Shown: positions 1 through 19,032 of the stretch, piece by piece
Position numbering within the stretch: the stretch's first letter is position 1
How the letters are laid out: each line of letters begins with the position of its first letter
Virus record (IMG/VR): IMGVR_UViG_3300011116_000039
Span: 1 to 24,279 of that record
Origin: a virus
Strand: one strand, 5' to 3'
DNA length: 24,279 nucleotides
Program-made: the position numbers and the translations under genes
Notes under the pieces: generated by a model
The model's database searches: none
The model's input: only the letters and a program-made list of their open reading frames with translations
What the model was told of the DNA's origin: nothing

Positions 1-677
1 CCGTATTTGATCCACTCTTCCTTGAAGATGTCAGAGCCAGCGTTGGTAAACGAAGCCATGTACTCCTGTTTAAAAGCAAAGGTGCTTAGGGTCTTTTTAG
101 CACTTTCTATCTCTTTTTGGTCAATCAAGGGGTTATCAGCAGTGGTGAAGTGCCAACTCTTCCAATCAGGATCATCCTCGCTTTCGCCCAACTTAAAGGT
201 ATCGTAGAACCAGTTTCTGCCCTTTGGAGTTCCGATGAAGAGTGCTCTCCCCCGTTTATCAGACAAACTGGCTCGAATGACCTGTTCCCATGCTTCGGGT
301 TTGATATCGGCTACCTCGTCTAGTACGGCATAGGTCAGAGACACACCACGAAGGGTATCGGGTCTGTCAGCACCACGAACGTAGATTCTTGCTCCGTTTA
401 TCAGGGTAATGTCTAGGTTGTTGACGTGGGAGGACTGAATAACCTCTCTGCCAAGGTCTAACAGTAAGTCCCAAATGATTTGACGGCTTTGTCCCATAGT
501 AGGGGAGACGTACAGCACAGCAGAGCCTTGTGGACACTTGAGTCCTTCAATCAGTAGGGTAACTGCCGCCATCCTACTTTTGCCACAACGTCTTCCGGCA
601 GCTACTACTTTGAATCTTGTTTGGTCTTTGAAGACTTCTTGTTGCCAAGGAAGAAGGGAGAAGTTGAGGTCAGCCAT
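1..677 (-). CDS. terL: Terminase large subunit (C-terminal part beyond window)
   Basis: This is the ATPase motor and nuclease that packages phage DNA into proheads. The gene starts at ATG 677-675 and reads without a stop to the left edge, giving about 225 residues; the nuclease domain lies outside. Visible motifs are a Walker A loop, GRRCGKS, at about residues 28-34; a Walker B strand, YAVLDE, ending in D120-E121; and a GTPKG coupling-type motif near 149-153. All are typical of TerL ATPase domains. The start codon lies inside the last codons of the upstream small-subunit gene (8-nt overlap), so the two are probably translationally coupled. The family assignment is secure. The subtype, and hence whether packaging is headful or cos, cannot be judged from this half. 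Confidence 0.95.
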   Translation of the reverse strand, partial: MADLNFSLLPWQQEVFKDQTRFKVVAAGRRCGKSRMAAVTLLIEGLKCPQGSAVLYVSPTMGQSRQIIWDLLLDLGREVIQSSHVNNLDITLINGARIYVRGADRPDTLRGVSLTYAVLDEVADIKPEAWEQVIRASLSDKRGRALFIGTPKGRNWFYDTFKLGESEDDPDWKSWHFTTADNPLIDQKEIESAKKTLSTFAFKQEYMASFTNAGSDIFKEEWIKY

Positions 678-1089
678 ACTTAGCCTCTACGTCTTGTGCA
701 TCGGTGTCGATGATCGTTGGCTCTTGACCCAAGCCAGTGATGTTGATCGTCACGGCACTTCGTTGGCCTTTGTCTTTTTCAAACATTGAGATTGGCAGTG
801 TGCGGTCAATGCACATCTTGAGCGCTGCCATCTGGCCTGGGTGGTCATCATTGAGCGCAATCTCAATCACCTTCTGCGCCACATCCTTGCCGCCAGACCG
901 GATCATCAGCTCCTTCAACTCTTTCAGGCGCTGGTGGTCTGTCTTAGGCAAAACCTTGGGTGGGTTGTTCGCATAGCGCTGAATGGTCATCTTGACCGAA
1001 CCCTTGGGACGACCACGCCCCTTCTTGGCAGGGGTTTGTTGCGTTTGTTGCGTTTCTTGCGTTTCTTCGGTTGCAGGGGTGAATTCCAC
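670..1089 (-). CDS. terS: Putative terminase small subunit
   Basis: A 139-residue protein directly upstream of terL and overlapping it by 8 nt; the position is the main argument for TerS. The start is GTG 1089-1087, preceded by an AAAGGA ribosome-binding site six bases away. The N-terminal 20 residues are Thr/Gln/Glu-rich, followed by a basic AT-hook-like KKGRGRPKGS at about residues 22-31, which fits DNA recognition. The middle is helical and charged, and the C-terminal part contains SMFEKDKGQRSAVTINITG, a segment I have seen in phage proteins that precede terL. No classical helix-turn-helix is obvious. It would bind the packaging site and load the large subunit. Another small DNA-binding protein in the same place cannot be excluded. 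Confidence 0.65.
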   Translation of the reverse strand: MEFTPATEETQETQQTQQTPAKKGRGRPKGSVKMTIQRYANNPPKVLPKTDHQRLKELKELMIRSGGKDVAQKVIEIALNDDHPGQMAALKMCIDRTLPISMFEKDKGQRSAVTINITGLGQEPTIIDTDAQDVEAKYG

Positions 1090-1273
1090 TTTTTTCCTTT
1101 CGGGAAGCTGGGTTTGATGGATTCTAGTCCATTTTGCTTTTTGCGTGGGGGGGTGGCACCACCAATTTCACTAGCGAGGCCGACCCCCTCCCCCCCCATG
1201 CAAAACAGCCCAAAACCAAGGGTTTTCCCGATTTTACTTTATACAACCTCCATTATGTTAAGTTGACGCAAAG

Positions 1274-1362
1274 ATATCCACAGATATTTGAATACTTTGT
1301 TTGTACCCAGCGAGTTATCCACAGGAAACTGTGGACAAGTTGAACAAAACCCTTGTGGATAA
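1274..1362. promoter_or_regulatory. Cluster of four DnaA-box-like sites
   Basis: Two 9-mers match the E. coli consensus TTATCCACA perfectly: 1315-1323 on plus, and 1354-1362 on minus (read as TGTGGATAA on plus). Two more differ at one position: ATATCCACA at 1274-1282 on plus, and TTGTCCACA on minus at 1330-1338. The middle two face each other six bases apart and also form an inverted repeat, CCACAG-GAAA-CTGTGG (1319-1334). A given 9-mer is expected well under once in a 24-kb window counting both strands, so two perfect copies within 48 bp are unlikely by chance. The presumed role is recruitment of host DnaA. Confidence 0.65.
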
Positions 1363-1848: not shown

Positions 1849-2178
1849 TCATCGTATCACCTCGATCTCAACTTTGTAAACTTTGGGGCCAGCAGCCCTT
1901 TGAGCGTATTGCCAATCAATGAGGCCATTGCCATCGTCTACGCCAAGCCAATCAGCGACACCATCCCTGACGGCCTTAAATCCAGACTGTAGGTTATCGC
2001 CGTCCAAGCGCCGTGGTGCGACTCTGGTCAAAACGACAGTAAGGGGTAGCTCCAAACCAGATGACTGAGCCGCAGCATTCAGGCTCATCCGAGTCCTGGT
2101 TCTCTGATCCCGAGCCAGCTTTGCCTTGACTGCCCAATGCAACCTCAAGTTCGCCACGCTGACGATTTTCATGTTCAT
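1849..2178 (-). CDS. rusA: RusA-family Holliday junction resolvase
   Basis: A 109-residue endonuclease that would cut four-way junctions in replicating or recombining phage DNA before packaging. The signature is RRLDGDNLQSGFKAVRDGVA followed by DWLGVDDG (about residues 57-83). The acidic D59, D61, D72 and D81/D82 and the nearby K68 match the RusA metal-binding pattern, although the lysine is seven residues after the second Asp rather than four as in E. coli RusA. The length is close to the usual 110-120. ATG 2178 is chosen; ATG 2172 is two codons later, and a TTG further up is less likely. It lies downstream of the primase gene across a 193-bp repeat-filled gap. Function is confident; the start is less so. 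Confidence 0.85.
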   Translation of the reverse strand: MNMKIVSVANLRLHWAVKAKLARDQRTRTRMSLNAAAQSSGLELPLTVVLTRVAPRRLDGDNLQSGFKAVRDGVADWLGVDDGNGLIDWQYAQRAAGPKVYKVEIEVIR

Positions 2179-2239
2179 TTCCACTTCAATCAAGCCACAA
2201 CTCCAATCCTATCAAAACCACCCCAAAATCCGCCGGACT

Positions 2240-2426
2240 GTACCGAAACCCTTTTTGTACCGAACCTGAACGTGTCTATAGACACGTTCGGTACGTTTCG
2301 GTACACCAGAGGGGGTTTGCTTCGGTACATTTCGGTACGTTTCGGTACATTTCGGTACACGCTTCGGTACATCACACCTCATTACCGACTGTACCGACTT
2401 CGGTACATTTCGGTACACTTCGGTAC
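2240..2426. repeat. Iteron-like CGGTAC array, largely 10-bp spaced
   Basis: CGGTAC occurs ten times on plus, with first bases at 2289, 2299, 2323, 2333, 2343, 2353, 2365, 2401, 2411 and 2421. The reverse form GTACCG occurs at 2240, 2258 and 2391. Most forward copies are exactly 10 bp apart and sit in the wider form TTTCGGTACA, so a bound protein would contact one face of the helix. The last three copies lie within the 3' end of the primase gene, the rest in the gap before the resolvase gene. The layout resembles iterons of plasmid or phage origins. The units have no spacers, so it is not CRISPR. Confidence 0.75.
2268..2289. repeat. 22-bp perfect palindrome inside the iteron array
   Basis: GAACGTGTCTA at 2268-2278 is followed immediately by its exact reverse complement to 2289, with no loop. 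One more pair (2266/2291) matches after a single mismatch. The right arm runs into the first forward CGGTAC copy. A perfect 22-bp dyad suggests a dimer-binding operator or a cruciform-prone element. It is too short in loop to be an ordinary terminator and has no T-run. Confidence 0.7.
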
Positions 2427-4429
2427 ATCCCAGAGTTCTCCAAAACCATGTTTTTCTTGGTTAGTGCTTCCAAACATTCCTTGAACCGCCGAGCGTTTAG
2501 ACCATGCCCTTTGGCTGAATCTCGCCATTCGTCGTAGTCCACCATGGCAGCAAAACCCTCGATGCCGTCACTGGCTCGTTTGGCCTCAATCGCCACCAAG
2601 CAGTTTAATGCAATGCGCTGGTTGCCTGAAAGAACTGTGCGCTTTTGGATGTTACCGATCAGGCCGGAGATGTCTACTGCCGTGAGATACGCGCCCCGAA
2701 CTGGCGCTCCATTCTTGTCTTGGATCGGCAAATCCACTTGGGTGATCTGGAAGTTTTTGGGTGCAGGCATCTCTGCATCCTTCATTTTTTTGGATTCAAA
2801 GGCTATTGATTTGGTTCCCGAATCCAACTGGCAGCGATACTCTGCATCAAGCGCACCCTTCAAGGCTGTGCTACCTCTAGACCTATCCTTATCTGCCACG
2901 CCGGAGTGATGCACTACTAAGACACAGCATTTCCAAGGTTGGCGAAGGTACACATCCAAGTGTTGGATAAACGCATTCATGTCTTGGGTGGAGTTCTCAT
3001 CACCGCCATGATTTCTGGCTAAAGTATCAATGATGATCAAACTTGGAGTTGTCCCTGCTTGCGCTGACAGCTCCTTGATGCTCTCAGCCACCACTGCCGC
3101 CTCTGTTGCATCGTACAACTGCGCTGCCCTATGGCTCTTGTACAGAGGCGCACCATCCAAAGTCTGCCCATTACCTAGCTGCCATGCCTTGAACCGCCTA
3201 GCTAGGCCGTTATGGCCTTCACCTGCGATGTAGAACACCGAGCCTTGCTTGACATCATGCCCATGCCACGCCTTGCCAGTGGCAACGCAGCAAGCTATGT
3301 CAATTGAGACAAAGGACTTACCACCGCCTGGGTCGCCAAACACCTGCGCCAAAGAGTCGCTCTCGATGTAGTCATCCACAATCCAATTGATCTGTGCCAA
3401 CTCCAAGCTATCTATTCTGGAGAACTCAAAAGCCAGTTTGTCCCGCATAGGGCCAGCCACACGCTCGATCTGCTCTTTGACCGCATCCAAGCCTTGCAGG
3501 CAGTGAAGGTCATTGAAGTCTGTTGGCTTGTTGTCCACCATGTCAGACTCCCCAAATGATGGGTACACAATCTCACCAAACACCAAGGCAGCCGCCGCAC
3601 GGCCCTTCGTTACACCAGGGTTGCCCTCCGTGAACTGGTCATTGTCTGCACCGATGATGATCTTCGAGCCTGGGAACATCTCTTTCGCGCTCTTAGCCAC
3701 CTTGGCTAAGTTCCCACAATCAAACGCCACCATGACCGTGTAACCAGTCGCCTCATGGATACTGGCGCAGGTGGCAAACCCTTCACCCACAAATACAATC
3801 TTCCGATTGCCCCTGAGTTCATAAAACCCACCCTCAATCTTGCCACCCTTTAAGAACCTTTTGTTGCCATCTGCATCAATGGTCTGATATGAGAGAATTT
3901 CCCCTGCTTGATTGATCACAGGCACAACCAGCCTGCCTGCCCTGTCAATCTTGATCCCATGCGCCCCAACGTGCTTCCTGACAAGGTAAGGATGATCGTC
4001 AGACGCATCTGCATACGTCCCTACCTCATCCTCTGCACGTTCGGCAGCCACCGCCTGCGATGCCAACCTGTCAGCATCCTTCTTGGCTTTCACCTCTACC
4101 AACCACTTGTCATGCTCAAAGCGCTCAGTAAAAGACATTTGCCTGCCAGTGTCTGCTATCCATTTACTCTCAAACACTGGCTCCTTCCAACAGCCTGCAA
4201 TGCCCACAGGCACTTTGCCACTGGAGTGCAAGATGTACCAACCATCAAGCGCACCCTTCTTGCTCGACACATGAGCCACCCTGTGAATCTCACCATCTGC
4301 GATGATCTCCTTGATCAGCAGGCCAGATGCCTCACAGTGCTTCCTGAACCCCTCTTCAGGGTTGATTAGGTCTTGCGATTCTGTGGCAGCTGCGAAGCCG
4401 TTGGGGAAAATAGATGTAAGACTGCTCAT
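2372..4429 (-). CDS. TOPRIM primase fused to RepA-type helicase
   Basis: A 685-residue replication protein that would make primers and unwind the fork. ATG 4429 is chosen: it overlaps the upstream stop as ATGA and has GAGG nine bases before it. Residues 1-200 resemble the N-terminal region of phage primases. A TOPRIM fold follows, with E216 in VFVGEG and the ADND acidic pair at 261-264. The second half is a RecA-fold helicase of the AAA_25/RepA kind: Walker A GDPGGGKS at 365-372, Walker B SLIIIDT ending at D468, and VVHHSG plus RSRGSTALKGALD at about 505-528, typical of hexameric RepA/DnaB-like enzymes. No N-terminal zinc finger is seen. The last 18 residues (MYRSVPKCTE...) are encoded by the CGGTAC array and probably reflect DNA constraint rather than protein function. 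Confidence 0.9.
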   Translation of the reverse strand: MSSLTSIFPNGFAAATESQDLINPEEGFRKHCEASGLLIKEIIADGEIHRVAHVSSKKGALDGWYILHSSGKVPVGIAGCWKEPVFESKWIADTGRQMSFTERFEHDKWLVEVKAKKDADRLASQAVAAERAEDEVGTYADASDDHPYLVRKHVGAHGIKIDRAGRLVVPVINQAGEILSYQTIDADGNKRFLKGGKIEGGFYELRGNRKIVFVGEGFATCASIHEATGYTVMVAFDCGNLAKVAKSAKEMFPGSKIIIGADNDQFTEGNPGVTKGRAAAALVFGEIVYPSFGESDMVDNKPTDFNDLHCLQGLDAVKEQIERVAGPMRDKLAFEFSRIDSLELAQINWIVDDYIESDSLAQVFGDPGGGKSFVSIDIACCVATGKAWHGHDVKQGSVFYIAGEGHNGLARRFKAWQLGNGQTLDGAPLYKSHRAAQLYDATEAAVVAESIKELSAQAGTTPSLIIIDTLARNHGGDENSTQDMNAFIQHLDVYLRQPWKCCVLVVHHSGVADKDRSRGSTALKGALDAEYRCQLDSGTKSIAFESKKMKDAEMPAPKNFQITQVDLPIQDKNGAPVRGAYLTAVDISGLIGNIQKRTVLSGNQRIALNCLVAIEAKRASDGIEGFAAMVDYDEWRDSAKGHGLNARRFKECLEALTKKNMVLENSGMYRSVPKCTEVGTVGNEV

Positions 4430-4644
4430 GCTTTGGCCTCCACAAGTTCTGGCCAAATAGACTGCCAACTGCCCTGGCACACCATCTGCCGAGTAAGCCT
4501 GCCCTCACTGGCCTGTTCTACCCGAACGGCCTCCCAAGCTGACATTTCTCGCCTGCCAGTGAGACATTGGTAAAGGTACTGCTCATTGATGCCAACTTTT
4601 TCTGCCAGTTGTCGGCGCTCATCTGGTGGTATTTGTGTGTTCAT
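4426..4644 (-). CDS. Cro/YdaS-like HTH repressor
   Basis: A 72-residue DNA-binding protein. After MNTQIPPDERRQLAEKVGI the segment NEQYLYQCLTGRREMSAWEA (about residues 20-39) has the helix-turn-helix spacing of Cro and YdaS-type regulators, and the end (LTRQMVCQGSWQSIWPEL) matches the usual Cro/YdaS tail. ATG 4644 gives the standard length; a GTG at 4695 would add 17 atypical residues without a good ribosome-binding site. Its stop overlaps the primase start by ATGA. It stands at the head of the minus-strand operon and faces the plus-strand early operon, the position of a switch repressor. TCTAGCA sites in the region between are its likely operators. No CI-type partner is present in the window. 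Confidence 0.8.
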   Translation of the reverse strand: MNTQIPPDERRQLAEKVGINEQYLYQCLTGRREMSAWEAVRVEQASEGRLTRQMVCQGSWQSIWPELVEAKA

Positions 4645-4654
4645 AGCTATCCAC

Positions 4655-4748
4655 TCTAGCACATTGATAGATTCTTTTGGCAATAGGGAAAACACCTATG
4701 AAAATAATTCTAGCAAAGGGCTTGACAACATCTAGCAACTCGCTAGAA
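4655..4748. promoter_or_regulatory. Putative operators TCTAGCA (three direct, one inverted)
   Basis: TCTAGCA occurs at 4655-4661, 4709-4715 and 4731-4737, and the inverted core GCTAGAA at 4742-4748. The last two form TCTAGC-AACTC-GCTAGA, a dyad covering the -10 box of the plus promoter. The first copy lies just upstream of the repressor start. Such placement would let one protein control both divergent operons. Binding by the neighbouring Cro-like protein is inference. Confidence 0.55.
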
Positions 4749-16947: not shown

Positions 16948-19032
16948 TTACAAGAATAAGCCAAGGTCTTGATTTCCATAGGCTAGACCAGTTCCAAAAC
17001 CAGACGAACCTAAACCAGTTCCACTAAATGCAGATTGAAGACCGCCTCCAAATAAACCACCCAATGCCTGACCAAACATTGCATTAGGATTACCTGCCGC
17101 TATCAGACCTTGAGCCGCTAGGTTTCTGGTTGCATCTGCGCCTGTTGCTAAGTTTGTACTTAATTGTGCGCCTGTCAAACCAAGTTTTCCAACATTTGCA
17201 CCTGCTTGAGAACTAATTTGTCCTAAGTTGATACCCATTTGTAAAGGTTGTTGTGCCAATTGCTCTAAGTTTTGTACTTGTCCAAAAGCACTTGTAAATG
17301 GTGCATAAGCCGCTTGTTGACCACCATAGTAGTTACCCATAGTCTGTGCGCCAGTGCCTAATAGACCTGCACCAAACAATACATCTCTCTGACCTAATTG
17401 TTGAGCATTAGCCGCTAATTCAGCCTCTTGTCTAGCACGAGCGTTATACAAAGCTTGTAGTTCAGGGGTTGTAGCACCTAAACCACCGCCTTGCGACACA
17501 GATAAACCTAAACGACCTTGATTTCTTAGTTTGGTTTGCAGATTAGCTAACTCTAACTCTCTGCCTGGTTGCAATAAAGCCATTTGTTCAGCAAGATAAT
17601 TTTGTGCAACATCTCTTGGAGTTTGTGCTAAATACTTGTTACCTAACGTAAACAAGCTCTGTGCGCCTGTTTGGAGTGGTTCAAAGGCTTTCTGTGCGCC
17701 TTCAGCTTGAACTAATCCAGACTCAGCTAACTTAACCAAACGATCTTGAGCATTTTTAGCTTCAGGGCTTAATGTGTACCCTGCACTAGTCAATTGACCT
17801 GTTGTAGGATCAATTTGAAACTGTGAAGTACCAAATCTAGTGGTCATGCCAATCGGTCTAAATTGAGCCGCTTGTTTAGCTGCCGCAGTCTCAGCATCAA
17901 TTCTTTGTTGCGCTCTTTGAGCCGCTTCACGAGATTGTTGCATCTGTAGCAAACTACCCGCAGTACCTAAACCACCAGATAAAAGATTTCCAAGATTTAA
18001 AGAGCCAGTTCTGTTTAATAAGGTGTTAACAAGACCAGTGCCTATAGTTGTTCCTGCACCAGTAACCAATCCTGTTCCCAATCCTGTACCTACACCTGTT
18101 CCGACACCAGTTCCAACTCCAGTTCCAACTCCAGTTCCTGTTCCTGTCCCCGTACCTGTCCCTGTTCCTGTTCCTGTCCCCGTACCTGTCCCTGTTCCTG
18201 TTCCTGTTCCAGTACCTGTCCCCGTGCCTGTTCCTGTTCCAGTACCTGTCCCCGTGCCTGTCCCTGTTCCTGTCCCCGTCCCAGTTCCAGCACCTGTGCC
18301 AGTGCCAGTTCCAGTTCCTGTACCAGTTAAAGCACCAGTTAAAGTTCCTGCCGCCAAACCACCTAGTTGTTCAGCGAGTGTCAAAGCACCCAAAGTTCCA
18401 CCAGCACCACCAAGAGACATATCAAGTTGAGTCAACTCAGATAACGTCAATCCTGTGTTGCCAATAGTTCCTGCCGCTCCAACATTGGCTAAAGAGCCAC
18501 CAAGATAGTCTGCTCCTGCACCCGCACCCGCATTCAATGCTTCAAATGCTGATCCTGCATTAGTACCACCACCAAATAAACTCTCAAAACCACCGCCTAA
18601 ACCACCAAACAACCCTGCCGCACCCAATATAAATGGAAGCATTGAGTTGTCAACAGCTTGAGTTTGCGTAGTTTGTTGGTATTCACCAGTAGGAGAATAT
18701 TGCTTAACATCAGTACCAGTTGCTACTTGATCGTTAATACCACCAGTAGTTTTATAAGTTAGAACATTCTCAATCCCGCCAACTTGACGATCTTCACCTG
18801 AACCAATAACTTGATATTGAGGCTGAACCCAAGTATCACCAAGAAGTTTTGCTTGTCCTTCAGGAACAGTAGCCGCCACACGAGAGATAACCTCACCCTC
18901 TGGGACGCCAACAGCTTGTGCCATTTGAGCAGGAGAAACCCCATACTGCTCCATAGCCGCGACGATATCGGCATCGCTCATGCCAGGATTTGCAGTCAAG
19001 AAATCCAATATTTGTTGATTGGTCACGGCCAT
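16948..19032 (-). CDS. Virion protein with Thr-Gly repeat domain
   Basis: A 694-residue protein. The first 60 residues form short helices ([20 protein letters not shown], a UBA-like or small helical pattern). Residues of about 130-235 are Gly-rich ([16 protein letters not shown]). About 235-320 is a Gly-Thr dipeptide array of some 33-40 units with a few Val, Leu or Ala substitutions, and 340-694 is Gln/Ala/Gly-rich helical. GAGG precedes the ATG. The late-operon position and low-complexity composition suggest a minor virion or internal core protein; a tail-tip role is also possible. The repeat is encoded by a hexanucleotide microsatellite with recent duplications. Confidence 0.65.
18076..18328 (-). 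repeat. Hexanucleotide microsatellite encoding (Gly-Thr)n
   Basis: The unit is GGNACN on the coding strand (CCNGTN on plus), repeated about 40 times. Third positions vary, so most units differ silently while the protein stays Gly-Thr. Within it 18141-18170 equals 18171-18200 exactly, and 18201-18230 equals 18231-18260 exactly: two different 30-bp blocks, each perfectly duplicated. Being multiples of six, such changes keep the frame and alter only repeat length. Confidence 0.9.

Follow-up and report, generated by a model that had tools for sequence, protein, structure and literature searches.

DnaA boxes joined to a putative host XerCD site near the packaging genes of uncultured phages

Does a cluster of DnaA boxes in a phage genome mark a replication origin opened by the host initiator, even when the phage brings a primase-helicase of its own? 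The locus studied here lies in a complete IMG/VR record of 24,279 bases, referred to below as the window. The initial annotation described four DnaA-box-like 9-mers within 89 bp, two of them perfect, and took them for a possible host-DnaA-dependent origin. All four 9-mers are present, and the middle pair is indeed inverted, 1315(+) versus 1330(-). The cluster lies, as described, in a gene-free region of 417 bp (1090-1506), which extends from the ORF in the terS position to the next ORF and contains no conserved gene. The spacer at 1283-1314 is AT-rich, with 62.5% AT versus 53% in the window. The phage does encode its own primase/helicase, since ORF 2372..4480 has Toprim_3 and AAA_25 domains. 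The features of the locus are listed in Table 1.

Table 1. Features of the composite element and its neighbourhood in the window
Feature	Position	Strand	Remarks
Terminase large subunit, N-terminal part	3..677	-	PF03237
ORF in terS position	670..1089	-	about 147 bp from XerC arm; assigned by its place before terL
XerC-type arm, dif-like site	1236..1246	+	ACTTTATACAA; identical to XerC arm of Comamonadaceae-family dif L286/L455
6-bp centre of Xer site	1247..1252	+	CCTCCA; varies in relatives
XerD-type arm	1253..1263	+	TTATGTTAAGT; hardly varies over 160 distinct elements; same as the XerD arm of host dif
Linker, XerD arm to DnaA box 1	1264..1273	.	10 bp
DnaA box 1	1274-1282	+	ATATCCACA, 1 mismatch; 1.86 bits in relatives
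DnaA box 2	1315-1323	+	TTATCCACA, perfect; 1.75 bits in relatives
DnaA box 3	1330-1338	-	TTGTCCACA, 1 mismatch; 1.82 bits in relatives
DnaA box 4	1354-1362	-	TTATCCACA, perfect; lowest conservation of the four, at times shifted by 1 bp in relatives
114-aa ORF	1849..2193	-	co-occurs with box cluster; no Pfam match
Iteron-like array, 11 CGGTACA units around perfect 22-bp palindrome (2268-2289)	2239..2428	.	competing origin candidate
Primase-helicase, Toprim_3 and AAA_25 (RepA-type helicase)	2372..4480	-	PF13362, PF13481

The box cluster and the conserved site beside it

The clustering of the four boxes is significant. When the window was shuffled 1000 times with its dinucleotides preserved, no shuffle placed four boxes with at most one mismatch within 89 bp, and the biggest shuffled cluster, of three boxes, appeared in 2 of the 1000. 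The pattern TTWTNCACA, which the initial annotation proposed for scanning, is by itself not enriched in the window (2 found versus 3.8 expected); it fits two of the four boxes and misses the other two. Successive boxes are separated by steps of 41-15-24 bp. The 32-bp spacer between boxes 1 and 2 keeps its length in the relatives but not its sequence, and its mean AT content there is about 65%. In an alignment of 19 + 40 distinct sequences, the boxes carry 1.85 bits versus 1.10 between boxes. Substitutions within the boxes concentrate at positions 3 (A/G/T) and 5 (C/G), the positions tolerated by DnaA. Because the cluster is conserved and the changes follow DnaA-box degeneracy, host DnaA is very probably the reader of the boxes. 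A hairpin or RNA element, TCCACAG-GAAA-CTGTGGA, was rejected: in some relatives the stem is disrupted by changes in boxes 2 and 3, and in others the unit is inverted.

The same alignment revealed a second conserved block outside the boxes, which the initial annotation, correct about the boxes, had overlooked along with its fusion to them at a fixed spacing. The block is a 28-bp motif at 1236-1263, ACTTTATACAA-CCTCCA-TTATGTTAAGT, and its 11+6+11 layout is that of dif and other XerCD sites, within the two 11-bp arms and 6-8 bp centre of an xrs. The boxes are thus one half of a larger composite element of about 127 bp (1236-1362). In relatives the XerC arm reads ACTTnATACAA and the centre is typically YGWCCA. 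Over 160 distinct elements, conservation falls from 1.98 bits in the XerD arm to 1.70 in the XerC arm and 1.42 in the centre; the XerD arm is nearly invariant and the centre variable (36 distinct sites). This agrees with the published xrs rules, by which the XerD arm is conserved better than the XerC arm and the centre is not conserved (PMC11724359). The phage site is AT-rich (72%) and is found once per genome in 10 near-complete contigs and in the window. We infer that 1236-1263 is a putative XerCD site worked by host proteins.

The two halves are tightly coupled. The XerD arm stands 10 bp from the first box in 101 of 104 distinct elements, and the sequence of this linker is unconserved (0.86 bits). 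A scan of viral contigs that started from the Xer site found DnaA boxes at 100 of 100 distinct sites among the matches listed, with two or more boxes at canonical offsets in 96 and shifted offsets in the other 4. Conversely, a scan that started from the box layout found the XerD arm in 62 of 63 distinct elements, again among the matches listed, so that both counts are samples of those matches and not totals. Wherever possible, distinct sequences were counted; several loci share contigs or metagenomes, and some elements were retrieved with patterns that include parts of the element. The composite unit is present in well over 100 IMG/VR phage contigs. The distance between the centre of the XerD arm and that of the first box is 20 bp, about two helical turns, and DnaA and XerD would therefore sit on one face of the helix.

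Other viral contigs contain related arrangements. Between its terS and terL, an unrelated phage (L497:3187-3230) carries the classical dif-like site AGTTCGCATAA-TCAACA-TTATGTTAAAT and a single DnaA-like box, a weaker version of the element. A separate phage group, possibly of Bacteroidota (L213, L485, L489 and L492), has TAGTAAGATAA-TAAACA-TTATGTTAA(A/G)T, a linker of 6-9 bp and inverted DnaA boxes; Xer-DnaA pairing may have arisen there independently. The motif GCAAATATCCA-AGCTTT-TTATGTTAAAT-TATCGTTAAAT-TTATCCACA occurs in viral contigs as long as 161 kb, in several copies in some (L473, L475-L478, L480-L484, L487, L488, L490 and L493-L496); it is not Xer-like and was set aside because it has no XerC arm.

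The match to host dif

The dif site of Rhodoferax ferrireducens is ACTTGATACGA TGTATA TTATGTTAAGT (PMC2731167). It has the XerD arm of the phage element and an XerC arm with ACTTnATACrA in common. Its centre differs, TGTATA versus YGWCCA. A scan of genome contigs identified dif of an uncultured beta-proteobacterium (L286) in which both arms are identical to those of the window, and all 22 arm bases equal the dif of L286 and L455. The L286 site is downstream of tmk, holB, tatD and an ankyrin-type gene, as read from translations, and so are the L274 and L293 sites. Among 401 host-family genomes, ACTTNNTACNA..TTATGTTAAGT was matched in 21, in exactly one copy each and with the TGTATA centre in 20 of them. 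The distance from dnaA to the site is 0.90-0.97 of half the genome in the four genomes with both on one contig, and on this account the site fits a true dif. To judge by the dif arms only, the phage host is probably a Rhodoferax-like member of the Comamonadaceae. The arms may serve as a sequence signature linking uncultured phages to their hosts.

The box cluster adjoins the phage site and not the host dif; no DnaA-box cluster was found beside host dif at 20 sites. The element is not a copy of host oriC either: the stretch upstream of dnaA in six host-family genomes has no more than two consensus boxes, spaced by about 50 bp and without the 41-15-24 pattern, and the triple-box pattern had zero matches in eight host-family genomes. 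The intact element was found in none of the 401 host-family genomes and nowhere in the genome-contigs scan. Two Rhodoferax MAGs (L285 and L320) contain Xer-like sites with the phage-like centres TCACCA and TCATCA, near primase-like and XRE-like genes and without DnaA boxes; they probably represent other mobile elements located at Xer sites or close to them.

Gene neighbourhood and the origin question

We collected 80 relative loci for the primase-helicase and 80 for the ORF in the terS position, which itself had no Pfam or PHROG match. The box cluster is present in 36 of the 80 terS loci and absent from 43 that have at least about 440 bp upstream, and none of these 43 matches the primase or the 114-aa ORF. 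The element profile is positive in 72 of the 80 primase loci, and the other 8 end within 1.7 kb after the primase. The boxes therefore travel with the replication side and not with terS. The initial annotation had regarded loss of the boxes from relatives with the same flanking genes as evidence against its proposal; this is what the 43 relatives show on the terS/terL flank, whereas on the primase flank all 72 loci reaching far enough retain the boxes. The box-less relatives tested encode O-like or DnaD-like initiators instead (PHROG 678, 26426 and 10469), and relatives with the same terS/terL and such an initiator have neither the Xer half nor the box half.

Relatives with the window's TerS have boxes at 0+, 24+, 39- and 80- on the terS coding strand, and most other primase relatives at 0+, 41+, 56- and 80-. 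The internal steps of the two layouts are equal, and the whole unit is inverted relative to the primase. A terS terminator or promoter was rejected, as orientation and position relative to terS vary. The element accompanies Toprim-AAA_25, PriCT_2-AAA_25 and PriCT_2-VapE replication proteins and differing terminases. It adjoins terS, before or after, in each lineage examined, with five TerS/replication combinations. The recombination site is thus near terS-type genes, as in P1-like cyclisation near pac, with the place of pac assumed. In 15 near-complete contigs neither a phage integrase (PF00589), the domain sought for a phage-encoded tyrosine recombinase, nor ParA (PF13614) was found.

Named phages gave no DNA match to the window. 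The nearest primase relatives are in Alteromonas phage PB15, Idiomarinaceae phage 1N2-2 and Salicola phage CGphi29 (32-34% identical), and the box cluster is absent from all three. Plasmids showed no more than partial similarity to the primase. Just upstream of the primase-helicase, at a divergent early-gene junction, is a small YdaS/Cro-like regulator (4426-4695). A long Thr-Gly coding repeat (18066-18328) lies within a 694-aa ORF (16948-19032).

The boxes are not the sole origin candidate, because an iteron array and the palindrome GAACGTGTCTATAGACACGTTC at the 3' end of the primase gene resemble an origin. In the window, about 0.9 kb separates the iterons from the boxes. Relatives carry arrays of other units at the same place (GAACCGAA/TTACCGAA, TCGGTGCA, GGTTCA and GGGGACA), and similar repeats are found in phages 1N2-2 and PB15; the one exception among the Toprim-AAA_25 relatives examined is L068, with no array in the stretch checked. 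That the place is kept while the unit sequence differs suggests co-evolution of the iterons with a binding protein. In 10 near-complete relatives GC skew, a check put forward in the initial annotation, tracks gene strand and does not turn consistently at the boxes; it was discarded as an origin test because gene strand dominates the signal. Of the host-DnaA-dependent origin originally proposed, the part concerning DnaA has held up, with a conserved cluster degenerate at positions 3 and 5; the origin role lacks support from skew and competes with the iteron array.

Possible functions and known systems

We tentatively prefer, with a confidence just short of even, to read 1236-1362 as a composite cis-element of about 127 bp at which host XerCD would produce unit circles, with DnaA alongside as an accessory or regulator. 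Host DnaA would bind the four boxes, and host XerC and XerD the 28-bp site. If a molecule carried the site twice, either in a circular multimer or dimer or at terminally redundant packaged ends, host XerCD could then recombine the copies into unit-length circles. In this scheme packaging is assumed to be headful and pac to lie near terS. DnaA by the XerD arm would form an accessory or timing complex, the role of ArgR/ArcA at cer and psi, and may additionally help replication start on the same circle. The site anatomy, the reciprocal coupling, the fixed spacing, the host dif match, the single site per genome and the position by terS speak for the Xer reading. So do the lack of the element where initiators are O/DnaD-like, the confinement of box substitutions to positions that DnaA tolerates and the presence of another origin candidate elsewhere. 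Against it, we know of no case in which DnaA acts as a Xer accessory protein, and multimer resolution would oppose concatemer packaging unless it is regulated. In addition, the accessory sequences of cer and psi adjoin the XerC site (PMC11724359, PMC5357621), whereas the boxes are on the XerD side.

The main rival explanation, which could coexist with the preferred one, is a host-run plasmid-maintenance cassette of 127 bp, in which host DnaA opens a plasmid-like origin and the Xer site resolves dimers. We consider it a serious but lesser possibility. P1, which combines a DnaA-box origin with dimer resolution, is a parallel, and the four conserved boxes, the AT-rich 32-bp spacer (65% AT mean) and the AT-rich Xer site (72%) would suit an origin. 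So would the occurrence of the element in both orientations, its mutual exclusion with O/DnaD-like initiator genes in the relatives examined and the lack of integrase and ParA genes in the contigs searched. An origin at this place is harder to reconcile with a GC skew without a consistent turn at the element, with the iterons and palindrome by the primase in all Toprim-AAA_25 relatives examined except L068, and with the arrays, but no box cluster, that accompany the primase relatives in Alteromonas and Idiomarinaceae phages. Nor is a dedicated unwinding element conserved, and such an origin needs no fixed 10-bp spacing to the XerD arm.

Three further explanations fare worse. The site could be the attP of an integrative element that uses XerCD to enter host dif, as VGJphi and CTXphi do, with the DnaA boxes as regulators. 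Its arms are identical to host dif, the phages have no integrase gene, and several phage centres share TG or TGT on the XerC side, as the VGJphi attP does with dif1 (PMC5357621). Nevertheless, integrated copies at host dif were found neither in the 401 host-family genomes nor in the genome-contigs scan, and the window centre CCTCCA has almost nothing in common with TGTATA, which makes this explanation improbable. We give still less weight to a DnaA titration decoy or a DnaA-controlled promoter of the terminase operon. The boxes are upstream of terS in the window type, yet the element can also lie downstream of terS and can point either way, a set of four is small for titration, and the fixed coupling to the Xer site is left unexplained. 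A packaging site (pac/cos) read by the terminase, with the boxes and the Xer match incidental, has the slightest chance of all. The element is near terS in every lineage examined, but its TerS and TerL partners belong to different families, it is missing from relatives whose TerS is the same (up to 89% identical), and box substitutions obey DnaA rules.

The composite site resembles a DNA-recombination switch run by the host more than a simple replication start, and a DnaA-box cluster in a phage need not equal an origin. Integrase-less phages that are common in IMG/VR, probably on Comamonadaceae, would outsource circularisation or resolution, and perhaps the start of replication, to two host systems at one 127-bp site; these freshwater phages seem to use two host machines at one spot beside their packaging genes. 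A more far-reaching proposal, rather unlikely in our estimate, is that host DnaA, as an accessory regulator, governs Xer recombination in tailed phages and so ties the formation of circles, or the resolution of phage DNA, to the replication initiator. If true, replication initiation would be linked directly to recombination. It would be a third mode of XerCD control after FtsK (dif) and ArgR/ArcA-PepA (cer and psi), adopted by several lineages of phages and, perhaps independently, in other hosts (L497; L213/L485/L489/L492). Our search of the open literature returned no report pairing DnaA boxes with a dif-like phage site.

Among known systems, cer of ColE1 and psi of pSC101 likewise join a short XerC/XerD core to adjoining host-protein sites and depend on host proteins only. 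They differ in that ArgR or ArcA, together with PepA, takes up about 180-200 bp on the XerC side, whereas the phage boxes begin 10 bp from the XerD arm and lie within 100 bp. The iteron plasmid origins of pSC101 and RK2 have iterons and DnaA boxes in one replicon, but in the window the two stand about 0.9 kb apart, with the iterons by the primase gene. The filamentous or satellite phages VGJphi, CTXphi and TLCphi (IMEX) also bear a dif-like site for host XerCD; they integrate at dif, whereas integrated copies of the phage element were not found in the genomes scanned. The P1 plasmid prophage, with DnaA boxes in oriR and Cre-loxP near pac, similarly has a site for circle formation or dimer resolution near its packaging genes. 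Circle formation by host XerCD would be the counterpart of the Cre-lox job in P1. P1, however, encodes Cre and RepA, whereas here the recombinase and DnaA would be those of the host and the two sites are fused into one.
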